Shown piece by piece: positions 5,714 through 42,103 of a DNA stretch of 64,000 nucleotides. The stretch's first letter is position 1. Every line of letters starts with the position of its first letter. Both the position numbers and the translations under genes were made by a program. The notes beneath the pieces are model-generated. The model saw only the letters and a list, made by a program, of their open reading frames with translations, searched no databases and was not told where the DNA came from. This DNA comes from Leptolyngbya sp. NIES-3755 (lineage in GTDB: Bacteria; Cyanobacteriota; Cyanobacteriia; Leptolyngbyales; Leptolyngbyaceae), in contig AP017308.1 of assembly GCA_001548435.1 (NCBI GenBank), positions 248,001 to 312,000 on the forward strand, given 5' to 3'.

Positions 5714-5835
5714 TTCTGTCCAATCGGGTCGATCCCACTATAGACAGACTTTTTATAATCTTCATCAGTTAAAAACAGTTGTTTGACCGAATGCCTGCTA
5801 TCTTTACGGGTGGTTGGTGTAAGGAGTGACTGAAA

Positions 5836-6357
5836 ATGCTGACGTTAATTTCTGAAAACACTGCTTTGATGCAAGGCGAGATTTTGCTGAATCCACGATC
5901 GCATTCTGGTTGGGGTGGAGCCGTGACCGCGAAAATGTATTTACCGATCGCGCTTCCGTCGGTATGGCAACAGGTAACAGACTATCCACGCTGGGTGCAA
6001 TATTTCCCGGATGTGACGAAGAGCGAGATTCGGCAAGTCTTGGAACAATCTGGCATCAAACGAATTTATCAAGCGGCAAGTAAAGCATTTCTGATTTTCA
6101 CGGCTCAGGTCGATATCACGCTCAAAGTATTGGAAACTCAGAATCAGCGAATTCAGTTTTTCTTAGAGTCCGGTAGTTTCAGCGATTTCCATGCTGATTT
6201 ACAGTTACAACCGCATGGAGATGGAACGATTCTGACTTATTCAGTACAAGCAACTCCGACGATTCCAGTGCCAAGCTTTTTGATCGAGCAAGCGATCCGA
6301 TTCGATTTGCCTACGAATTTAAGACAAATGCGATCGGTCATTTGTACAGGGCGATAA
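5836..6357 (+). CDS. SRPBCC-family (START-like) lipid-binding protein
   Basis: The 173-residue protein has the polyketide-cyclase / coenzyme Q-binding fold signature: PIALPSVWQQVTDYPRWVQYFPDV, then alternating strands and a long C-terminal helix (SFLIEQAIRFDLPTNLRQM). Such proteins bind hydrophobic ligands in a helix-grip cavity. AAGGAG at 5820-5825 supports the ATG at 5836. It is 27 bp from the NACHT gene on the same strand and could share its transcript. The ligand is unknown. Confidence 0.8.
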   Translation: MLTLISENTALMQGEILLNPRSHSGWGGAVTAKMYLPIALPSVWQQVTDYPRWVQYFPDVTKSEIRQVLEQSGIKRIYQAASKAFLIFTAQVDITLKVLETQNQRIQFFLESGSFSDFHADLQLQPHGDGTILTYSVQATPTIPVPSFLIEQAIRFDLPTNLRQMRSVICTGR

Positions 6358-6384
6358 TAGTCATAGTTCATTGACTCTGATTTC

Positions 6385-9078
6385 ATGGCGCGTCCTAGCT
6401 ACGGTGCTGCAACTCAATCTCGATCGCGAATTCTCTTCACGGCTCTCCTCGACTATGCCAATGAGGAACTAGAAGTCGATGAGCATTCGATCGATGTTTT
6501 GCGCCCTCAAATTCAGACTCATTGGAAATGCGATCGACGTTTAATTGTTCGGACTAAAGTTCGATTTCTAGAAGCATTAACGAAACGAATTGATTCCCCT
6601 TTAACAGCCGATCAGATCAAAGAATCACTTAGAAGATTCGAGGATTTTCTTGGCATTCTAGAGGACAATCGCCCGAATCGAAGCGGCTCTGAAGTTTGGC
6701 ATTTTACGCTTAATTTTTGGCATTCAAGATTCGATCGTTCTGCAAATCTTCAGCAGTTTGATCAAGCTTGGGAAATGGCGCGTTTACCTCAAACAAAACC
6801 CGAATTGATTAATTCTTGGGTGCAGATTTGTCGCGATAGTTTAGAAGCTCAAAATTATCAGCGCTTAACGACGAATCCGCTCACAATTACAGATGGATTT
6901 TCATTCGATGTGCATGAATTGTATGTGCCATTGGGAATTGTCGAACGACAAGAAGAGGAAGAAGAACGAATTTTCTCGATCGCTGAATTTCTCAATCAAT
7001 TAGGGTCAAAACAACGAATTGCGATCGTTGGCGAACCGGGAGCCGGAAAAACCACGCTTCTACAGCAAATTGCCACTTGGTTGATTGATCAAAATGCGTT
7101 ACCAATTTGGATTTCTTTAGCTGATCTGCAAGGCGAAACACTCGAACAATATTTGCTCAATACTTGGTTGAAACAAGCGACTCGAAAAATTAGTGTCTCC
7201 GTTGAATTACAAGAATCATTTGCAGAACAATTTCGGACTGGAAAGGTTTGGTTGTTATTAGATGCGATCGATGAAATGGCAATCGAAGCCAGTGTCGCTT
7301 TAACCTCGATCGCACGTCAGTTACGCGGCTGGATTTCTGATGCTCATGTCGTTTTAACTTGTCGATCGAATGTTTGGGATAATGGCAAAAATTCCTTAGA
7401 ATCGTTCACGACTTATCAGAATCTTAGTTTTCGAGAACAGACTGGAGAATTTATCGATCGATGGTTTCAGAAGAAATCAGAATTAGGCGATCGACTAAAA
7501 CAAGAATTGAATAAACCAGAGCGAAAACGAGTTCGAGATGCTGTTAGAAATCCTCTGAGATTAGCTTTAATGTGCCGTTCTTGGTCGCTAACTCAAGGTA
7601 CATTACCAAGTACAAAATCAACTTTATATCAACAATTTGTAGAGACAATTTATGCTTGGAAGCAAGACTATTTCCCCACAACACCTGCACAAAGACAGCA
7701 ATTAAATCATGCACTTGGACAGGTTGCACTACGCGCTTTAACTCAATCAAAAACGCGATTTCGTTTACCTTATTCGTTTTTGCAGCAAGCGTTTGGAGAG
7801 GCGCTCGATCTCATGCCTCTAGCGCTTCAACTCGGTTGGTTAAATCAAGTTGCAACTCTGAACGGTGAAAAGATTTATGCGTTTTATCACTCTAGTTTTC
7901 AGGAATATTTTGCAGCACAAGCGATCGACAATTGGCAATTCTTCTTCGACAATTATTTAATCTTTCAATCTCATTGGCGCGAAGTTATTTTCTTGTGGTT
8001 GGGTCGAACTGATTTAGAAATCGACCAAAAAGAATCGTTCATCCAAGCCTTAATTGAATTTGACGATCGCTGCGGTGGTTTCTACTCACATCGCGCCTTT
8101 TTCCTAGCGACTTCCGGTTTATCAGAATTTCCTCAAAGCGAGAAACTAGACGAAATTCTGACAAAATTAATTGAATACCGATTTGGTAGTAAAACGTTAG
8201 CACCTGTTCGGGAAGCAGCGAGAATTGCACTTTTGCAAACCGATCGACAAAGTGCGATCGCAGTCTTAGAACAATTCGTCTCCTCAACCCCAGATTTATT
8301 TGCGCGTTGGTCAGCCGCTTACACGTTAGGTAAAACGCTCGATCATGGAAATCATTTTGCCATTCAAGCCATGATCGATCTATTGAACGAAATCGACAAC
8401 ACAACACTACAATTGAATATCTGCGATCAATTAGAAAAGATTAATCCTGGAAATTCAGTTGCATTTGAAACAATTAATTCAATTCTCAAAACAACAGAAT
8501 CAGAAACCTTACAGCGTAAAGCAGCTTATATTTTAGGTAAGAACAAATTGGATTTAGAAAAATCGATTTCAACGCTTGAGAATTTAATTCATTCCACTCA
8601 AAACCCAACTTTACGATTGCAAGCCGCAGAAAACCTAAACGCACTAGATTCAACAAATACGATCGCGCTTTCAGTCCTAAATTCTCTTCCAACCAAAACC
8701 AAGCCAACCAGCACAAAACCCTCGAAAGCATTACAACTTGAACGCACGATCGCAACCTTAGAACAGCGACTTGCTCAAACGACTGATCCGATCAATCAGC
8801 GTCGTCTTGCTTATCGATTAGCTACACTATCACCCGGACATCAAAGCGCGATCGACACTCTTCTTTCTCTATTGCTCCAACCCCTACCCACCCTACACAA
8901 GAAGATTGTTGAGAACCTCAAGGATGTACTTTTAGAAGAACAATTGCCGATCGTCGTTGATCGACTAAAAGAAGCTTCCGAATCGATCGAGGTCTATAAA
9001 CTGCTTTGGTATTGTTCGGAACGAATGAACTATCCGTTGTTCGATCGAGCTTGGAATCAAGAGCATTCTCAACCCTGA
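6385..9078 (+). CDS. NACHT-domain NTPase with C-terminal HEAT repeats
   Basis: This 897-residue STAND-class protein has three parts. Residues 1-200 are a helical N-terminal region I cannot name. A NACHT domain follows, with Walker A GEPGAGKTT near 216 and Walker B WLLLDAIDEM near 290. From about 580 to the end, short helical pairs look like HEAT repeats. In bacteria NACHT proteins often act as oligomerising sensors, several of them antiphage, with the N-terminal part as effector or adaptor. No obvious nuclease, protease or TIR motif is visible at the N terminus. The 3' end overlaps the convergent aldehyde dehydrogenase by 10 bp. Confidence 0.85.
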   Translation: MARPSYGAATQSRSRILFTALLDYANEELEVDEHSIDVLRPQIQTHWKCDRRLIVRTKVRFLEALTKRIDSPLTADQIKESLRRFEDFLGILEDNRPNRSGSEVWHFTLNFWHSRFDRSANLQQFDQAWEMARLPQTKPELINSWVQICRDSLEAQNYQRLTTNPLTITDGFSFDVHELYVPLGIVERQEEEEERIFSIAEFLNQLGSKQRIAIVGEPGAGKTTLLQQIATWLIDQNALPIWISLADLQGETLEQYLLNTWLKQATRKISVSVELQESFAEQFRTGKVWLLLDAIDEMAIEASVALTSIARQLRGWISDAHVVLTCRSNVWDNGKNSLESFTTYQNLSFREQTGEFIDRWFQKKSELGDRLKQELNKPERKRVRDAVRNPLRLALMCRSWSLTQGTLPSTKSTLYQQFVETIYAWKQDYFPTTPAQRQQLNHALGQVALRALTQSKTRFRLPYSFLQQAFGEALDLMPLALQLGWLNQVATLNGEKIYAFYHSSFQEYFAAQAIDNWQFFFDNYLIFQSHWREVIFLWLGRTDLEIDQKESFIQALIEFDDRCGGFYSHRAFFLATSGLSEFPQSEKLDEILTKLIEYRFGSKTLAPVREAARIALLQTDRQSAIAVLEQFVSSTPDLFARWSAAYTLGKTLDHGNHFAIQAMIDLLNEIDNTTLQLNICDQLEKINPGNSVAFETINSILKTTESETLQRKAAYILGKNKLDLEKSISTLENLIHSTQNPTLRLQAAENLNALDSTNTIALSVLNSLPTKTKPTSTKPSKALQLERTIATLEQRLAQTTDPINQRRLAYRLATLSPGHQSAIDTLLSLLLQPLPTLHKKIVENLKDVLLEEQLPIVVDRLKEASESIEVYKLLWYCSERMNYPLFDRAWNQEHSQP

Positions 9079-34967: not shown

Positions 34968-35327
34968 ATGCAAATCTCTATTTCTGATGATCAGTTAAAG
35001 ATTGACTTGGATTGGTTAGAGCGCTTTTGGGCGTTTTACTACAATGCGGATCTGCACATTCCATTGAGTCATATCAATCAAGTTTCGACCGAGGAACCGC
35101 CGAGTAGTTGGACAGATGCGAGATTGCCTGGAACTTATTTACCAGGTGTGATCAAAGCAGGAACTTACTATACCGATCGCGGAAAAGAATTCTGGTATGC
35201 CACTCGATCGGGTCGATACTTAGTTTTAGAGCTTGAGAACGAGTTTTATAAGAGAATTGTGTTGACCCTGGATCAAAACCAACTTTGGGCAACACGCATT
35301 CGAGAGCATAATGGGCAAGCCGTCTAA
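34968..35327 (+). CDS. Conserved hypothetical protein (PH-like beta fold)
   Basis: This 119-residue protein is rich in predicted strands, with WFYATRSGRYL-like and LELENEFYKRIVLTLDQ segments reminiscent of small PH-like domains. There is no signal or membrane segment. It overlaps the RNA methyltransferase start by 17 bp, so the two are probably co-translated. Function unknown. Confidence 0.65.
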   Translation: MQISISDDQLKIDLDWLERFWAFYYNADLHIPLSHINQVSTEEPPSSWTDARLPGTYLPGVIKAGTYYTDRGKEFWYATRSGRYLVLELENEFYKRIVLTLDQNQLWATRIREHNGQAV

Positions 35328-36282
35328 CTTATTGATTAAACTCAGTCGTCAACTGTTCACAGACTCGATCGAGCAAGAACAATTCATCAATGCCTTGGTG
35401 CATCCAAAACCTTTCAATCCTTGTATTCTCTGGTGCAAATCGCGACCTGAGATTGTTCCATTCGAGGTTGAACCGCGATTAAATTGGCAGCCCGAATTTG
35501 TCGATCGACTCTCTCTACAAGAAAAGCCCGGACAACATCCACTGCATGATTCTGGCTATTTCTACTGTCTCGATTTCTCTTCAGTATTTGCAGCATCGGT
35601 TATGAGTGCTATCGACTCTGCTGATCTCATTTTTGATATGTGTGCATCTCCAGGTGGAAAAAGCGTTTTTGCTTGGACAATGTTTCATCCAAAGCAATTG
35701 TTTAGCAATGAAGTGATCGGGAAACGCAGAGCCGCATTGATCTCGAACTTTAAGCGGTGTGAGATTAGAAACTCGGTCCCGTACCCGTGTAGCGAAGCTA
35801 TCGTGCTCACCTTAGATTCTAAAATTCTGGCTGAAGAACTCCCGAACACAATGGATTTAGTTCTGGTGGATGCGCCTTGTAGTGGACAGTCCTTGATTGC
35901 AAAAGGTGGAAAAGCGGAGGGTTGCTTTCATCCGATCAACATTAATAAGAATGCCAATCGTCAGAAGCGAATTTTGGCGAACTCTGCACAGTTAGTCAAG
36001 CCGCAAGGATATTTGGTGTATATGACTTGCACCTATTCCACTGAGGAAAACGAGCAGGTGATTGATTGGTTACTAGAACGGTTTCCGCGGTTTGAAACGG
36101 TTGAGGTGCAGAAATTGGAAGGGTATCGATCGCATCTTACCGATCAATTTTGTTATCGCATCTTTCCACACAATCGATTAGGCGCAGGCGCTTTTACTAC
36201 TTTGCTGAGAAACAAGGAGACTGGAGAAGGGCAGAAAGTGCCTGCAACATTTTTGGAGCGTCCCGGAATGATGCTCATCTAG
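35311..36282 (+). CDS. RsmB/NOP-family RNA (cytosine-5) methyltransferase
   Basis: The 323-residue methyltransferase has a SAM-binding motif in DMCASPGGKSVFAW. The two cysteines of the 5-methylcytosine mechanism are in VDAPCSGQSL and MTCTYSTEENEQV. It would methylate a cytosine in rRNA or tRNA; the target is unknown. The N-terminal RNA-binding part is shorter than in RsmB. A segment near residue 158 (VPYPCSEAIV) looks like extra sequence between motif III and the catalytic motif and may come from a small inserted repeat. The 3' end overlaps the convergent nuclease gene by 8 bp. Confidence 0.88.
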   Translation: MGKPSNLLIKLSRQLFTDSIEQEQFINALVHPKPFNPCILWCKSRPEIVPFEVEPRLNWQPEFVDRLSLQEKPGQHPLHDSGYFYCLDFSSVFAASVMSAIDSADLIFDMCASPGGKSVFAWTMFHPKQLFSNEVIGKRRAALISNFKRCEIRNSVPYPCSEAIVLTLDSKILAEELPNTMDLVLVDAPCSGQSLIAKGGKAEGCFHPININKNANRQKRILANSAQLVKPQGYLVYMTCTYSTEENEQVIDWLLERFPRFETVEVQKLEGYRSHLTDQFCYRIFPHNRLGAGAFTTLLRNKETGEGQKVPATFLERPGMMLI

Positions 36283-36895
36283 AAACAATTAGTGTTCCAA
36301 TCTTTTTCATCACACTCAGCACATCATAAAGCTGATTACGGCGGGAAATCAGAGAGTAAACATCTGAGAAATCATACGTTTGCTCCAAGACCTTCGCGAA
36401 TGCAAAACTGCTTCCATTTGTGACCAATCCAAACACTGCTTGCTGAGGATTTGGATTCGCTGCCATGTAAGTGAGTAGTTGAGGAATTCCAACCTCGATC
36501 GAAGCTTTCGTTTGCTTTGCTTCAACCACTAGCACCCAAAACCGTTGCTGAATTACCAAAGCATCAATCCGTCCTTGGATTTCTTCCTCATCTTCAAATT
36601 CAAAGCTGACAGCGATTTCTGCTCTAAATCGAAACGGCGGTTCGTAAAATCCAGCTAAATCAAGCAGCGGAGAAACAATGAGCACTTTCGCTGTTTCTTC
36701 CAGCATTGGGCTATCTGCCTGTTGATAGTCATACCGCTGTTTGATGAGATCCAGTCGCGCTTTCTCTTCTGCACTCAATTGCACAAAGTCCTCTCGCCAT
36801 TCGGTGAAAAAGCGATCGTCCTCTGCTCGTCTCAGCCCGAACTTCTCATGAACTTGGTTAAGACTAACAATGTACTTAGAGACTGCTTGAACCAT
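36275..36895 (-). CDS. PD-(D/E)XK nuclease, type I restriction HsdR N-terminal-like
   Basis: The protein has 206 residues. The nuclease core has the acidic residue in GRIDALVIQQ and the E-x-K pair in WVLVVEAKQTKASIE, then a helix with QLLTYMAAN, the pattern of the HsdR N-terminal nuclease. There is no helicase or specificity domain. Stand-alone proteins of this type are common in cyanobacteria. It lies 50 bp downstream of the transglycosylase-like gene and may end the same operon, but has no clear ribosome site. Confidence 0.8.
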   Translation of the reverse strand: MVQAVSKYIVSLNQVHEKFGLRRAEDDRFFTEWREDFVQLSAEEKARLDLIKQRYDYQQADSPMLEETAKVLIVSPLLDLAGFYEPPFRFRAEIAVSFEFEDEEEIQGRIDALVIQQRFWVLVVEAKQTKASIEVGIPQLLTYMAANPNPQQAVFGLVTNGSSFAFAKVLEQTYDFSDVYSLISRRNQLYDVLSVMKKIGTLIVSR

Positions 36896-36945
36896 AATAT
36901 TTGACCGAAAAGTTTATCAATTATGCGATCGCACAGGTGGCAAAT

Positions 36946-38004
36946 TCAACAGCGAATCATATCGTCTACTAAACGGTCAATTATAGGACGATACATTGTG
37001 TTATCTAAATGCTCCTTATACCAACTATGATAACTGCCATCCATCAAATGCTCTTGAATCAGTCTCGCTTCTTCTAGTAACACCCAAAGGTTATGAGTTG
37101 CGCGATTATAAAACCCTTGGCTACCTGCGCCTTTTCCGTCTTCCTTAGTGAGCTTTAATCCTGCAATCCCGTCTTTAACACAAGCTGGACAACGGCATTC
37201 TTTCAGCGTTTCTAACTCTTCAGCACCAATGTCTCGTCCGCGCCATTTTCCCAATCCCGCGATCGATCGCTCTCCAGTGCCAGGAAGTTGAATCATGCCG
37301 CGTGCCGCCCGATTTCTCCATCCGCTCGAATCCACGGAGTCAAAGCCAAGCAATGCCGCAATGTGCAAAGTAGCAGTTCCACCGATTCCGAAAACATGAA
37401 GTTTCTGGCAATTAAATTCCTCCCGAATTCGCTCTAGTCCTTTAAGCACTGTTTGATGTGACATCGCCTTTGGAGCGCGTAATAAATTCGGGACAATGCC
37501 TCCCAATGCAACATAGGACTTTTCTAAAAATGCTGCATCACTTTTTATGGCTCCGATGTACTCTTCAAGCATTTGACTAATATGAATGACAGGAAAATAA
37601 GAATTTGAGAACTGTTTATAATTGCGATTAGCTTCCATCGTTTTAAAGAAGCAAATTTCCTGCTCCTCAAGACTCATTTTGGGAGTTGGAATGAAGTCTT
37701 GAGGAATCGGATACCAATCAGGTTTTGCTCGATCGATAAACTCTTCATATTCGCCAATTGGTGCAGTTCCTTCGCGAGAAATAAAGTAGAAAGCACCATT
37801 GTCTAGATAGATTTTGATAGGGTCGGGAACCTGTAAAAACTCTCGCAATCCAAGCTCGATTGCTTGACGACGCTTGTTTCGAGACTGATGAAAATCGGCA
37901 TAGGAAACCATTATTGCCTCTAAATTAGGCAAATAGTATTCGCTGTCGGGATGCCACACTTTCGGCTTGATATTACTGAGGCTAAGCCCTGCAACAATTC
38001 TCAA
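36946..38004 (-). CDS. tRNA-guanine-transglycosylase / DpdA-like enzyme
   Basis: This 352-residue protein has the landmarks of the TGT superfamily. An early aspartate lies in YLDNGAF (D68, where TGT has DSGGF). The likely nucleophile region is FDSVDSSGW (D222, D225). A zinc site is formed by C270, C272, C275 and H304 (ECRCPAC...THNL). The size, and its place beside HerA and NurA rather than tRNA genes, point to the DpdA group that puts 7-deazaguanine bases into DNA. A TTG start at 38004 with GGAGA upstream lies 5 bp past the herA stop. No preQ0 synthesis gene lies in the window. Confidence 0.75.
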   Translation of the reverse strand: MRIVAGLSLSNIKPKVWHPDSEYYLPNLEAIMVSYADFHQSRNKRRQAIELGLREFLQVPDPIKIYLDNGAFYFISREGTAPIGEYEEFIDRAKPDWYPIPQDFIPTPKMSLEEQEICFFKTMEANRNYKQFSNSYFPVIHISQMLEEYIGAIKSDAAFLEKSYVALGGIVPNLLRAPKAMSHQTVLKGLERIREEFNCQKLHVFGIGGTATLHIAALLGFDSVDSSGWRNRAARGMIQLPGTGERSIAGLGKWRGRDIGAEELETLKECRCPACVKDGIAGLKLTKEDGKGAGSQGFYNRATHNLWVLLEEARLIQEHLMDGSYHSWYKEHLDNTMYRPIIDRLVDDMIRC

Positions 38005-38009
38005 TCGTT

Positions 38010-39848
38010 TTATCTCCCTTTACCGCTGGAGATATTACCACGTTGGGCATCTTCCAAGGCTTGAAAAGCGTCCTTTTCTTCACGTTCTCCACTTGATTCA
38101 GATTGTTTAATTCTCACTAATACCGGGAAGTTAATGAGTTGACCGGATAGAACTGCCTCACCAACATCGAGATCGGGAAGCATCCTTGCCTCGTCTTCAC
38201 CCAAACTCTCGATCACTTTACGGACAAAGTTTTGATCGGCAGGATTGACCATCCGCATAATGATAAAGGAATTGCACATTGCCAAAGTGGTTTCATCCAA
38301 TCGCGAAGGTCTCTGACTGACCAAGATTAGTCCTACTCCAAATTTTCGTCCTTCTTGTGCAATGCGCTTAGTAATTGAAATTGAGAACTCCTCAGCTTGA
38401 TTGTTGGCATATCCTGGAACAAAATTATGTGCCTCTTCTAATAGAAACAGAACAGGGAGTTTCAGTTCGTTCTGAACACGAGCGCTGAAGATGTCATTGG
38501 CAACAAGGCTGTAGATTGTGGCTTGAAAGTTGCTGGTATAGCCCGCTAAGGAGACAATACTGATACCTCCGTATCTCACCAGTTGAGTTCGATCGTTGGG
38601 CAGCGGCTCTGTTGTTTTAGAGACTTTCTTGCTAATCTCTTCCATCTGGCTAAGTTGTTTAGCAGCGGCACGTAAATTATTCGGCAATCCTTCCAGATAG
38701 CCAGCCGTTCTCTTATCAATTTCTTTTAGTTGTTCACAGCCGCTCCATTCAATCAGTTGATCGAGTGCATCTTCTTCCTCGAAAGGTTCTTGTTGATCTG
38801 AATTCTTTGATTTTGATTTGGTTGCTTCTTTCGCGGCTCTTTCTTTCGCGGCTTTAATCACCGCAACCACAAAATCTGCAAGTGCATGGAGATCGGGTTT
38901 CAGTGAAAGGTTCGGATTGCCAATATACTGACTCAGCCATAGTTGGCGAGTTTTCATTTCTTGAGGCGTTTTTGCTGAAAGAAATTTGTGAGCGCCTTTG
39001 AACAAATCATCAAATTTGCTGCGGTGAGTATTCGCTAATGCCCATCCCAGCGCTTCTACGATCGTAATTACAGTCTCCGGAGCCTGCTCAAAAATCGGAA
39101 GTTGAGCATAGTAGCGTTGTACTCTGCCTTGTAAGCTTGGCACATCCGCTAAACCCGTGTAATCTCCGTGCGGATCGAAGATCACGATCGGATAATTCTT
39201 CCTCGATAGTTCCTCAATAATTTTTCTCGCAGTCACGCTCTTTCCTGCGCCTGTCATCGCAAGAATTGCCAAGTGACGAGACACGATCGCATGACCATCG
39301 ACTTTGACATCGACCTCTGGACGATTAGAGAGCGTCGCAATGTCTAAAGCCCGATTTTGTTTATCTTCTAGCTCTCCGATGACTACACGAGCAATATCTT
39401 TAGACTCAGGACGATAGGCGCTCGAAGCGGGTTGAGGAGGATATCGAAGCTGGTCTAACCGCCCACCCTTGTTACTACTACGCTGTTCTACACCCAGAAC
39501 TTGACAGACTGCACTCACCATCTCACGGCTCAGCGACAAGACTGTTTCAAAGGGATCAGTTCGAGTAGCAGCTAACTCATGCCCGGCTTCTGCTGGAAAG
39601 AGTGGGTTTAGTCGTTCAATGCGCTGAACTTTTGCCCAGATGCGAATTTGTTCTATCTGAGCGTCTTTTCCTGGCTTGCGGAGTTCCGCATCTACGGCGA
39701 TGATATCCTGTTCGCGCACCTCTTCATGAGCGACTGCCAAACGAAATTCTCGGCTGGTACTTTCGCCCACTAAGGTTCCAACATAGCGATCGATAGAATC
39801 ATCTTCAGGCTGTTGATTCGTTTGGGATTTTTTAGAAGTCGTCACCAT
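38010..39848 (-). CDS. herA: HerA-type DNA translocase ATPase
   Basis: The 612-residue protein has an N-terminal HAS-barrel-like region of about 110 residues, then a FtsK-HerA ATPase. Walker A is AMTGAGKSVTARK (about 198-210) and Walker B LPVLFLLEEAHNFVPG. A distal region contains EGRKFGVGLILVSQRPSRLD. A 30-residue lysine-rich insert lies near residue 340. HerA hexamers pump DNA into NurA nuclease. GGAGAAAA before the ATG and the 12-bp gap to nurA support an operon. In bacteria HerA is often a defence-system component. Confidence 0.92.
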   Translation of the reverse strand: MVTTSKKSQTNQQPEDDSIDRYVGTLVGESTSREFRLAVAHEEVREQDIIAVDAELRKPGKDAQIEQIRIWAKVQRIERLNPLFPAEAGHELAATRTDPFETVLSLSREMVSAVCQVLGVEQRSSNKGGRLDQLRYPPQPASSAYRPESKDIARVVIGELEDKQNRALDIATLSNRPEVDVKVDGHAIVSRHLAILAMTGAGKSVTARKIIEELSRKNYPIVIFDPHGDYTGLADVPSLQGRVQRYYAQLPIFEQAPETVITIVEALGWALANTHRSKFDDLFKGAHKFLSAKTPQEMKTRQLWLSQYIGNPNLSLKPDLHALADFVVAVIKAAKERAAKEATKSKSKNSDQQEPFEEEDALDQLIEWSGCEQLKEIDKRTAGYLEGLPNNLRAAAKQLSQMEEISKKVSKTTEPLPNDRTQLVRYGGISIVSLAGYTSNFQATIYSLVANDIFSARVQNELKLPVLFLLEEAHNFVPGYANNQAEEFSISITKRIAQEGRKFGVGLILVSQRPSRLDETTLAMCNSFIIMRMVNPADQNFVRKVIESLGEDEARMLPDLDVGEAVLSGQLINFPVLVRIKQSESSGEREEKDAFQALEDAQRGNISSGKGR

Positions 39849-39860
39849 CGATTTTCTCCA

Positions 39861-41378
39861 CTAAACTTGAGGACGGAAGAGCCAGTCGCGTTTGGTCATA
39901 TACATCGCTTGCACCAGAATTCGACGCATCTCCGCATCATTGATTTCTCCACGTTGCAAGCTGACTCCGAGTTGATACTTGATGATTTTGCTGTAGGCAT
40001 CTGTCATCCAGTTTGGAATATGTGCATATTTGTCAACAATGTCCAAACCGACTGGAAACCCATAGCCTGGAAGTAACCGAGCATAAAGATTCGTATGTTG
40101 GGCAGCATCAATGATCTGATCTGTTCCTAGTTCGTCAAAGACTTCCACTCGAATCGGATCAGTCGTTTCCGAAACTTGGACATAGCAGCCTCGAACTCGC
40201 GGAAATCCAAATTTGCTCGATGACTTCAGACAGTTCCAATTCACTTCACTCGATCGAGATTCTTTGGGTAAAGCCATCTGACCTTTCGAGAAACCGCTGT
40301 ATTTATCGATAATCCAAGACTCGGTCGCCTCACCTGGTTGAAGCAGCATTGCTAGAAGTAAGCTATCGGTGTAGCCCAGTTTCTTTAAGAGCGCTTCTGG
40401 GGAATTCAAATCAGAGCGTCCATAGGTTTCATTGAAATAATCCTCCCTTTCATTCTTCCGCAATCCGGTAAACACCCGCTCCATTAAGATTGTTTGACAA
40501 AATAAGATTGTTTGACAAAACTCGCGCAAATTCCCACCGCGTTCGATTACACCCACGATCGTCGGTCTCGGTTTGCGCTGTTTTGCTTTGTGAATGAGTT
40601 GACGATGCAGAAAGGACATCCACGCTAAAGGCTCAAATAACCTCTGTTTCACCCATTCATGCGACCAATCTGGTGCCATTTTTGGATAGATGTAAAGCTT
40701 TGCTTCTTCTAAGAAATCTGCTTTTAACTGTTGAGCAAGTGAGGGATCTTGAGCATATTGACTGAGAAATAGATCAATATCCTGCTCAGTAAACGGTGTA
40801 TGTCCCATGTAGTGCCAAACGGTGTATACCAGCGGACCTTGAAACATCAACACTCGTAGATCCGGTGTTCGTTCGAGTGCGGCTAATCCTCCTAAAAGCT
40901 CTGCAATAATTCGCACAATATCTGTAAAGTCTTTGCGATCCTTACTGCCGCCTTCTAAGTCTCCCAAAATGATTGGGTAGTAACCAAACTGCTCTCTTTC
41001 CGCCAATCGCCGCTCTCCAGTGCGAACGCAGTAAGAACCAACCCGTAACAGAATCGGAACCTGACTGGAGATCTGAACTTGTCCAAGTCCCCCATCAATA
41101 AAGGTTACAACTTCGCCTTGAACATCTGCCCAGGTTAAATCATCTACAGATTGTACAGACAAAATGGGATCATCCCGTCGTCCTTGTTGAGATTCCCACA
41201 TTGCCTGCCGCAAGTGCCTCACAAACGTTGCAGTATTTCTGAAATAGTTGTCTCTCAGACTTTCTGCAACCGTAAGGGCATTCTCAGCCAGTTTGACAAA
41301 CAGGTGGGGATGCCGCTAAATTTCTTCTCGAACACCATCTTCTGTCAATCGATGCAGCGGTTGGTTTGCGTGATTCAT
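39861..41378 (-). pseudogene. nurA: NurA-type nuclease gene with an in-frame amber codon
   Basis: The frame from ATG 41378 encodes 505 residues with a NurA domain: the first metal-binding aspartate in VTFIDGGLGQVQI, the LLGGLAALER helix, and a late VDKYAHIP segment. The ATG overlaps the upstream stop as ATGA. Codon 21 is TAG (41316-41318), probably from CAG, and the frame then runs open to the end. A GTG at 41222 could restart translation and give 453 residues with the catalytic core, but no ribosome site precedes it. An 18-bp tandem duplication lies at 40485-40520. Activity is therefore uncertain. Confidence 0.8.
40485..40520. repeat. 18-bp perfect tandem duplication inside nurA
   Basis: TAAGATTGTTTGACAAAA occurs twice without a gap, repeating the residues FCQTIL in the protein. 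The reading frame is kept. Confidence 0.95.
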
Positions 41379-42103
41379 TGCCGCTTTACCTCAATTCCCA
41401 ATTGATTTAAGACTCGACAAGCATCATGAGTTCCAAAACATCGTACCGGGAGTTCCGTAATTTGACTGACTAACCATTTTGGCGAAATTTGATGATTGTC
41501 GATGTCGAGGAACCAAGACTGACAGCGGCTCGCGATCGCGTCCTCAGTTTGAACAGCGCGTTTTGCTCGTTCAAGCACTTGCTCACGAGTCAGCGTGATC
41601 TCGACTCCTTTGATCTGTGGAAAGCGAGAGCGACAGCGGCTAGAGGGTTTCTCTAGTAATTCTGAATTTTGATACAGCCAATTCTGTAACTCAGTGAGTC
41701 TTCTTCCTAATCCGCCTTTGGAAATTTGAAGGCTGCATTGTGGAGGAAATAACGATCGCAAATCTCCAATTGCGCTTGAGTAGCTTCGACTTGCGCCCAC
41801 AAAAACGGCTTGATAAGAATCTGAAAGTGTTGAGAGAGAAGCTGTAACTTGAGTTTGTAACTGTTGTGATCGCTCAGGCTGCATTTTGCGATCGTAATTT
41901 GGGATCGGTTTATCGCTGGAAATTAAACCAAATTCAGCGGATAAGACATGAATATCAAGCAAATTCGCTTCGTCTGGATATTGCCGTAAGAATTTTCTCA
42001 AAACTTTAAAAGCAGGACCATCGTAGCGCTCCAAAGCTCTGAGCAACTCTGGATCAGACCGCTTTTTTTGAGAACACGCAAGAATGAGAAGCCGTTTATT
42101 CAT
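41375..42103 (-). CDS. DUF6884 / YaaA-like protein
   Basis: This 242-residue protein starts with LLILACSQKKR, then RYDGPAFKVLRKFL and VLSAEFGLISSDKPIPNYDRKM. This is the layout of DUF6884 proteins related to the YaaA fold. The C-terminal about 90 residues are less typical. YaaA binds DNA and protects it in peroxide stress, and relatives occur beside DNA-modification genes. It is the first gene of the nurA-herA-transglycosylase operon and shares the ATGA overlap with nurA. The role is not established. Confidence 0.75.
   Translation of the reverse strand: MNKRLLILACSQKKRSDPELLRALERYDGPAFKVLRKFLRQYPDEANLLDIHVLSAEFGLISSDKPIPNYDRKMQPERSQQLQTQVTASLSTLSDSYQAVFVGASRSYSSAIGDLRSLFPPQCSLQISKGGLGRRLTELQNWLYQNSELLEKPSSRCRSRFPQIKGVEITLTREQVLERAKRAVQTEDAIASRCQSWFLDIDNHQISPKWLVSQITELPVRCFGTHDACRVLNQLGIEVKRQ

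Follow-up and report, generated by a model that had tools for sequence, protein, structure and literature searches.

The described systems closest to the locus reported here are Dpd and BREX-Related Capture (BRC). The locus is a cassette of four genes, DUF6884-NurA-HerA-DpdA-like, on the minus strand of a 64,000-nucleotide stretch of Leptolyngbya sp. NIES-3755 (contig AP017308.1, positions 248,001 to 312,000 of the forward strand). This whole stretch is called the window, and positions are counted from its first letter. Canonical Dpd marks host DNA (PMC11888242, PMC12839542; here and below, articles are cited for the excerpts available). Dpd and the cassette share a TGT-fold transglycosylase, a YaaA-fold/DUF6884 protein, an apparent need for 7-deazaguanine and restriction-type genes nearby. 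They differ in the effector, which is DpdD-K in Dpd and HerA-NurA in the cassette. BRC resembles the cassette in that its predicted defence operon contains a HerA/FtsK pump and a TGT homologue, and differs in its PglZ, DUF6079, STAND NTPase and DUF4007 proteins, with GNAT and TGT present in a subset; no homologue of DpdB or of DpdC is reported for it by its authors (PMC12839542). The word NurA does not occur in that text. Membership of BRC was ruled out, as none of PglZ, DUF6079, STAND NTPase and DUF4007 was found among the eight window proteins scanned. Judging by its title and topic, PMC10853773 is probably the article on HerA capture systems that the BRC paper cites; it has no match for TGT, NurA, YaaA, deazaguanine or Dpd.

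Three further groups share single parts with the cassette. The antiphage systems HerA-Sir2 (Nezha) and HerA-DUF4297 likewise combine a HerA hexamer with a nuclease or NADase partner (PMC12948488), while in the cassette the partner is NurA and the pair is bracketed by two base-modification-type genes. DpdA proteins of phages and archaeal viruses are TGT-like enzymes acting on viral DNA (PMC6884629), and among the proteins of haloarchaeal virus HRTV-29 are a DpdA and a homologue of YaaA (PMC8651126). Viral DpdA marks viral and not host DNA, and the three viral proteins that were aligned have no CxCxxC zinc motif. HerA-NurA of archaea and Deinococcus-Thermus is the same enzyme pair, with no transglycosylase or DUF6884 mentioned in the excerpts of PMC12977600. 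Both DNA strands are cut by HerA-NurA of T. kodakarensis, for which the authors of that study propose a role against viruses; in Deinococcus the pair is linked to repair (PMC12977600). The original prediction for this DNA knew of no described system with its exact set of five genes, and none with the set of four appeared among the matches listed from the open-licence literature, in which Dpd and BRC were nearest.

The cassette seems to be a so far undescribed type related to restriction systems. Judged from its sequence, it is reasonably likely to be a horizontally moving, restriction-modification-like system of four genes, in which self DNA is marked by the DpdA-like and DUF6884 proteins and HerA-NurA breaks down DNA that has no mark. 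Through TGT base exchange, the DpdA-like enzyme would put preQ0, or a 7-deazaguanine close to it, in the place of selected guanines in the host's DNA. The DUF6884 protein would bind the same DNA; like DpdC of the Dpd system it would convert the nitrile carried by the inserted base, or else it would read that base. HerA, a hexameric double-stranded DNA pump, would act with NurA to degrade both strands of DNA without the mark. We infer that DNA rather than RNA is modified, which base is inserted, and that the mark protects from HerA-NurA. The genes and their neighbour lie in the window as follows.

41375 to 42103, minus strand: first gene, DUF6884 protein of 242 aa with a YaaA/DpdC-like fold over residues 1-147 and an unassigned C-terminal domain; PF21818, 40.8 bits (Pfam cut-off 30)
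39861 to 41222, minus strand: second gene, NurA nuclease, 453 aa open frame from GTG; PF09376, E 7.2e-8
38010 to 39848, minus strand: third gene, HerA DNA translocase, 612 aa; DUF87, E 3.6e-27, and HerA_C; PADLOC HerA, E 1.8e-58
36946 to 38004, minus strand: fourth gene, DpdA-like base-exchange transglycosylase, 352 aa; PF01702, 27.1 bits (Pfam cut-off 26.3), TGT fold, catalytic and zinc residues
36896 to 42201, no strand: extent of the cassette, the stretch absent from two congeners (G391 and G388), which align on either side
36275 to 36895, minus strand: PD-(D/E)XK/HSDR_N gene, a neighbour outside the cassette; HSDR_N/PD-(D/E)XK in Pfam, E 1.3e-5

All five minus-strand open reading frames of the original prediction were found where it had placed them. 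Pfam agreed with the labels PD-(D/E)XK/HSDR_N, TGT, HerA and NurA, the 'YaaA-like' protein proved to be DUF6884, and the gaps of 50, 5 and 12 bp between genes were correct, the last of these separating NurA and HerA. The window NurA had no match in PADLOC, NCBIfam or PHROGs, where the other four proteins were supported.

Conservation of the unit was examined in public genomes, whose loci and genomes carry our L and G numbers. An alignment/profile query with the DpdA-like protein returned 35 loci and a single-sequence query none. Other searches brought the total to 39 non-redundant DpdA-like loci, from which the duplicates L022, L025 and L041, the fusion L013 and L050, which has no DpdA-like frame, had already been left out; the plasmid L062 and the viral contig L061 also stand outside the 39. 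Ten of the 39 were dropped for frames under 330 aa, leaving 29 full-length loci. Four of these (L018, L019, L023 and L028) were too near a contig edge, so that 25 had enough upstream sequence, the close relatives L010 and L024 being counted separately. HerA was present in 25/25 of these loci, as was a NurA-type protein, the name being tentative in nine that carry type 2 (see below) only. DUF6884 was found in 23/25, or 24/25 after L021 was extended upstream, with L043 the exception, and the gene unit was complete in the same proportions. DUF6884 comes first as a rule and DpdA-like last. According to their records, the 25 loci belong to Cyanobacteriota, Chloroflexota, Candidatus Poribacteria, Candidatus Latescibacterota and Acidobacteriota.

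Full-length DpdA-like proteins and DUF6884 proteins (E <= 1e-20) occurred in the same four of 386 cyanobacterial genomes, the window's own included. G118 is a fifth carrier with a piece of DpdA-like at a contig edge, and G027 carries the canonical DpdA fusion. Co-occurrence of the two families with five carriers gave a hypergeometric p of 5e-9, relatedness ignored. The window's type of NurA (E <= 1e-10) was found in 1/386. A full unit of type 3 (see below) is present in Calothrix PCC 7103, and Chlorogloeopsis fritschii PCC 6912 has a DpdA-like gene in a unit cut off by a contig edge. In the phylum of G444, 4/201 genomes are carriers. The four-gene set is beyond chance.

The borders of the cassette were given by empty sites. 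Congener G391 aligns with the window over the PD-(D/E)XK gene (36294-36895, 84%) and again from 42202, and has 40 bp where the window has 5.3 kb. Congener G388 has the same gap, of about 45 bp, with only 43 bp of the start of the PD-(D/E)XK gene aligning. From these sites it follows that one block, made up of exactly DUF6884-NurA-HerA-DpdA-like, was gained or lost. The original prediction depended on five genes being conserved together, which was found across loci for four of them and not for the PD-(D/E)XK gene. The latter was rejected as a fifth component: it is kept at the empty site of G391, its family is dispersed and multi-copy in cyanobacteria (eight matches in this genome, up to 18 in a relative, and matches in 28/39 genomes searched, own included), and the other loci that were scanned gave no match to it at E <= 1e-4. 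The unit is thus one of four genes and not five. Beyond it, an RsmB/F-like methyltransferase gene (35311-36282) overlaps the PD-(D/E)XK gene tail to tail. G391 lacks this gene too at that site, which shows that the stretch is variable in more than one respect.

The 352-aa protein had been assigned to the TGT fold, and structure prediction supports this. Its model (pLDDT 86.6) matches archaeosine TGT 1iq8 with Z 29.6 and a root-mean-square deviation of 2.7 over 314 residues; other TGTs match too, and Foldseek also lists DpdA 7ui4 (E 1e-9). The predicted CxCxxC...H zinc site was confirmed, with ligands C270, C272, C275 and H304 kept in 27/27 aligned sequences together with the catalytic D68 and D225 and with D103 and H203. 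The catalytic and zinc residues align with those of the genome's own TGT. The base-pocket stretch, which distinguishes preQ0 from preQ1 enzymes, reads GGIVPNLL in the DpdA-like protein and, gaps aside, resembles GGVVPLLE of archaeosine TGT; that of the genome's own TGT reads GGVSVG. A mixed tree of TGT and DpdA proteins had weak deep forks and long branches meeting, and did not place the DpdA-like protein among DpdA, archaeosine TGT or TGT. Since the best profile and fold matches are to archaeosine tRNA TGT, the protein might be a tRNA-modifying TGT paralogue that stands beside HerA-NurA by happenstance. This is scarcely credible, as HerA accompanies the DpdA-like gene in every assessable locus and a canonical TGT is also present in all seven carriers checked.

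The DUF6884 protein may tie the cassette to Dpd. Over residues 1-147 its model matches E. coli YaaA (5caj, Z 9.9) and AF0587 (2q07, Z 9.8); residues 148-242 were barely covered by the fold search. The AF0587 match, together with DUF5591 matches in 4/20 DUF6884 members (best E 0.004), presumably hints at archaeosine synthase. PF21818 was matched by 20/20 members at E <= 0.1, and the family profile matched no solved chain by sequence. C10 and K14 of the CxxxK motif and S55 and G59 of the LSAxxG motif, as these are defined in the Pfam paper (PMC11701544), are invariant in the 20 aligned sequences. PADLOC matches the protein to DpdC with E 5e-4. The link to DpdC is drawn because PMC11888242 lists DUF6884 as the dpdC domain and because in L013, a canonical dpd cluster of a cyanobacterium, DUF6884 is fused to canonical DpdA (481 bits) beside DpdE, DpdF and QueC. 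That cluster (L013:2140-13178) also has QueE and QueD alongside, named by eye. Upstream of the module, two loci of Poribacteria (L033:1-672 and L034:2216-3845) have additional genes akin to the DUF6884 portion of the fused canonical DpdA. The conserved C-terminal domain of the cassette protein is a candidate recogniser of the missing mark.

QueC was searched for in the carrier genomes. With full-length QueC defined as E <= 1e-25, it was found in 23/28 genomes (28/28 if short, weak matches are included), and in 23/29 carriers when G027 was left out as a canonical dpd genome and two genomes were added. The copy in G413 is divergent (102 bits). The six carriers without full-length QueC are G118, G438, G443, G444, G445 and G646, and the upstream side of the module was visible in all of these except G118. 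In G438 (L030) a queuosine-precursor transporter gene overlaps DUF6884 by 4 bp, and in G444 (L036) such a gene lies 0.8 kb upstream with two small genes between; these score 122 and 133 bits with TIGR00697, for which the cut-off is 51. G445 (L037) has a distant transporter-family gene directly upstream, above the cut-off of PF02592 (35.6 bits) and below that of TIGR00697 (32.7 bits), and its homologue lies directly upstream in G646 (L055). Transporter-family genes therefore stood upstream in 4/5 QueC-less carriers against 0/18 QueC-bearing loci as fetched (Fisher p 6e-4, kinship ignored). A further transporter gene of G444 lies 2 kb away from the tRNA TGT of that genome.

The position of these genes just upstream in QueC-less carriers points to a 7-deazaguanine substrate. 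They are the strongest hint that the module may consume imported 7-deazaguanine. In G443 (L035) a DUF366 gene (99-671) occupies the place of the transporter-family gene. It is possibly linked to 7-deazaguanine supply; the literature matches listed for DUF366 were, by title, about other domains. In L047:1144-2785, a locus outside the QueC comparison in which HerA was not seen, a transporter-family gene on the opposite strand stands back to back with NurA and DpdA-like frames that are broken.

The same genes bear on a type IV-like alternative, in which the TGT-fold protein and DUF6884 sense or remove bases of phages with 7-deazaguanine DNA and call in HerA-NurA. Cyanophages with their own preQ0 pathway and a TGT-like gene exist, and GrwAB shows that restriction of this kind occurs (PMC12137116). 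We nevertheless consider it very improbable, as transporter-family genes upstream in QueC-less carriers imply that the base must be supplied, and the transglycosylase residues are kept in 27/27 sequences.

The nuclease pair occurs in three architectures. Type 1, that of the window, is DUF6884-NurA1-HerA1-DpdA-like (15 loci including L033). Type 2 is DUF6884-HerA2-NurA2-DpdA-like (10 loci including L033); its HerA2 shares about 24% identity with HerA1 where the two can be aligned. Type 3 (L021/L063, mobilizable plasmid AP018313) has DUF6884, two more genes, an IrrE-like peptidase, NurA3, HerA3, Mre11, Rad50 and DpdA-like. L033 carries both NurA1-HerA1 and HerA2-NurA2 with a single DpdA-like gene, and L038 has a type 1 unit beside a type 3 nuclease set including Mre11-Rad50. 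On the DpdA-like tree, where L033 was labelled type 2, well-supported branches show three or more switches of the HerA type, with the outer gene pair unchanged. The adjacent type 1 HerA and NurA of the window clear the Pfam cut-offs, as does the NurA of L015; the type 1 NurA profile matched no solved chain by sequence. HerA3 and NurA3 profiles match a solved pair (7f6d_B, E 8e-62, and 7f6d_H, E 4e-5), which we take to be from Deinococcus; with Pfam alone they are silent or weak. The NurA1 profile does not align with NurA3.

NurA-HerA-Mre11-Rad50 with an IrrE-type peptidase (L021, L062, L063 and L038) appears to be a bacterial resection-type cassette of its own, and a DUF6884 gene stands in front of this set on the plasmid and in L063. 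The whole might be a cassette for DNA-end repair or resection, in which the marking of bases would steer or limit how the host's own breaks are resected. Its HerA-NurA and Mre11-Rad50 in L021/L063, in L062 and beside type 1 in L038 form a resection-type set, and HerA-NurA is tied to repair in Deinococcus (PMC12977600). A repair role is nonetheless quite improbable, given the patchy distribution (full-length in 4/386 cyanobacterial genomes plus one partial copy, and in 4/201 of the G444 phylum), the empty sites, the carriage on a plasmid and the apparently broken copies L020, L040 and L045.

The plasmid copy on AP018313 is one sign of mobility. In L018:2830-10485 the DpdA-like gene lies beside TnsA, TniB and TnsD/TniQ with a sub-cut-off rve gene, a Tn7-like context. 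The viral contig L061, which encodes a P22-type coat protein, has an intact DpdA-like frame (5809-7032) that opens with a HerA1 scrap of 22 residues, 86% identical. It looks here as if a virus acquired the marking enzyme and shed the weapon, a possible phage capture of a protective enzyme. Retention of DpdA-like alone would be expected if this enzyme were sufficient for protection. DpdA-like matched 21 records of the phage collection, none over 80% of the query. The best was Sulfolobus virus STSV1 (E 4e-11), and two tailed phages with weaker matches have TGT-like genes within complete FolE-QueD-QueC-QueE clusters.

TGT chemistry passes through a covalent intermediate, the cassette brings its own DNA-degrading motor and the third architecture adds Mre11-Rad50. 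These points would suit an attack on the invader, in which the transglycosylase or DUF6884 acts on incoming DNA (or on tRNA during infection), HerA-NurA degrades the altered DNA and the host stays unmarked. We judge this unlikely: the viral contig that keeps only the DpdA-like gene suits protection better, and canonical Dpd marks host DNA (PMC11888242, PMC12839542).

Marking of self DNA with degradation of foreign DNA, the plan that the original prediction had thought coherent, remains the best reading. It gains support from the transporters, the DUF6884-DpdA fusion, the empty sites and the plasmid and Tn7-like contexts. Several points weigh against it. The DpdA-like protein scores 25 bits with the DpdA equivalog NF041059 (cut-off 200), and its profile matches archaeosine TGT, an RNA enzyme, better (4e-11) than DpdA (6e-5). 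No DpdB match was found among the eight window proteins scanned. The four transporter cases are partly related to each other, the QueC-less genomes are drafts, and in G118 and G443 neither full-length QueC nor the transporter family was found. The viral capture is a single contig that could be a prophage boundary, and STSV1 has no preQ0 genes annotated within 4 kb of its match. For type 2 NurA, 7/10 proteins match PF09376 at E <= 0.1 (best E 5e-4), none of those tested singly reached the Pfam cut-off (L011, 19.8 bits against 21), the profile matched no solved NurA structure by sequence, and NurA1 does not align with NurA2. Therefore the name NurA is tentative in 9/25 loci.

The state of the window copy also counts against the reading. 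A 4-bp overlap of the YaaA-like and NurA genes had been proposed. The start at 41378 that it requires gives a frame with an in-frame TAG at codon 21 (41318-41316), and the open frame from GTG 41222 leaves 152 bp between the genes. In L015, whose 500-aa homologue is 73% identical to the window NurA, the 4-bp coupling is present (6207-6210); it is absent from the window. The TAG falls within the conserved N-terminal part of NurA, and as the frame on either side of it matches the intact homologue, it would be a recent stop, a sequencing error or a point passed by a restart. The DpdA-like branch of the window is long (0.57-0.62, against 0.2 for HerA and 0.18 for NurA). With this long branch and the NurA stop, the window copy may be impaired or failing, or translation may restart downstream; the branch of NurA is of ordinary length, which speaks for a stop of recent date or a functional short form.

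For restriction biology, a further step is conceivable though doubtful. The cassette could represent a class of restriction-modification without a site-specific cutter, in which a 7-deazaguanine mark, finished or read by DUF6884, is a stop or eject signal for the processive HerA-NurA pump-nuclease, joined in one architecture by Mre11-Rad50. If so, the mark would guard whole molecules as the pump travels and not individual cut sites. The same outer gene pair accompanies three divergent HerA-NurA sets, so any code linking mark and motor would be open to part swapping. Self-marking by the cassette would join two fields, 7-deazaguanine marking of DNA and HerA-driven defence, and would supply a concrete candidate reaction for DUF6884, a family whose function is unknown.

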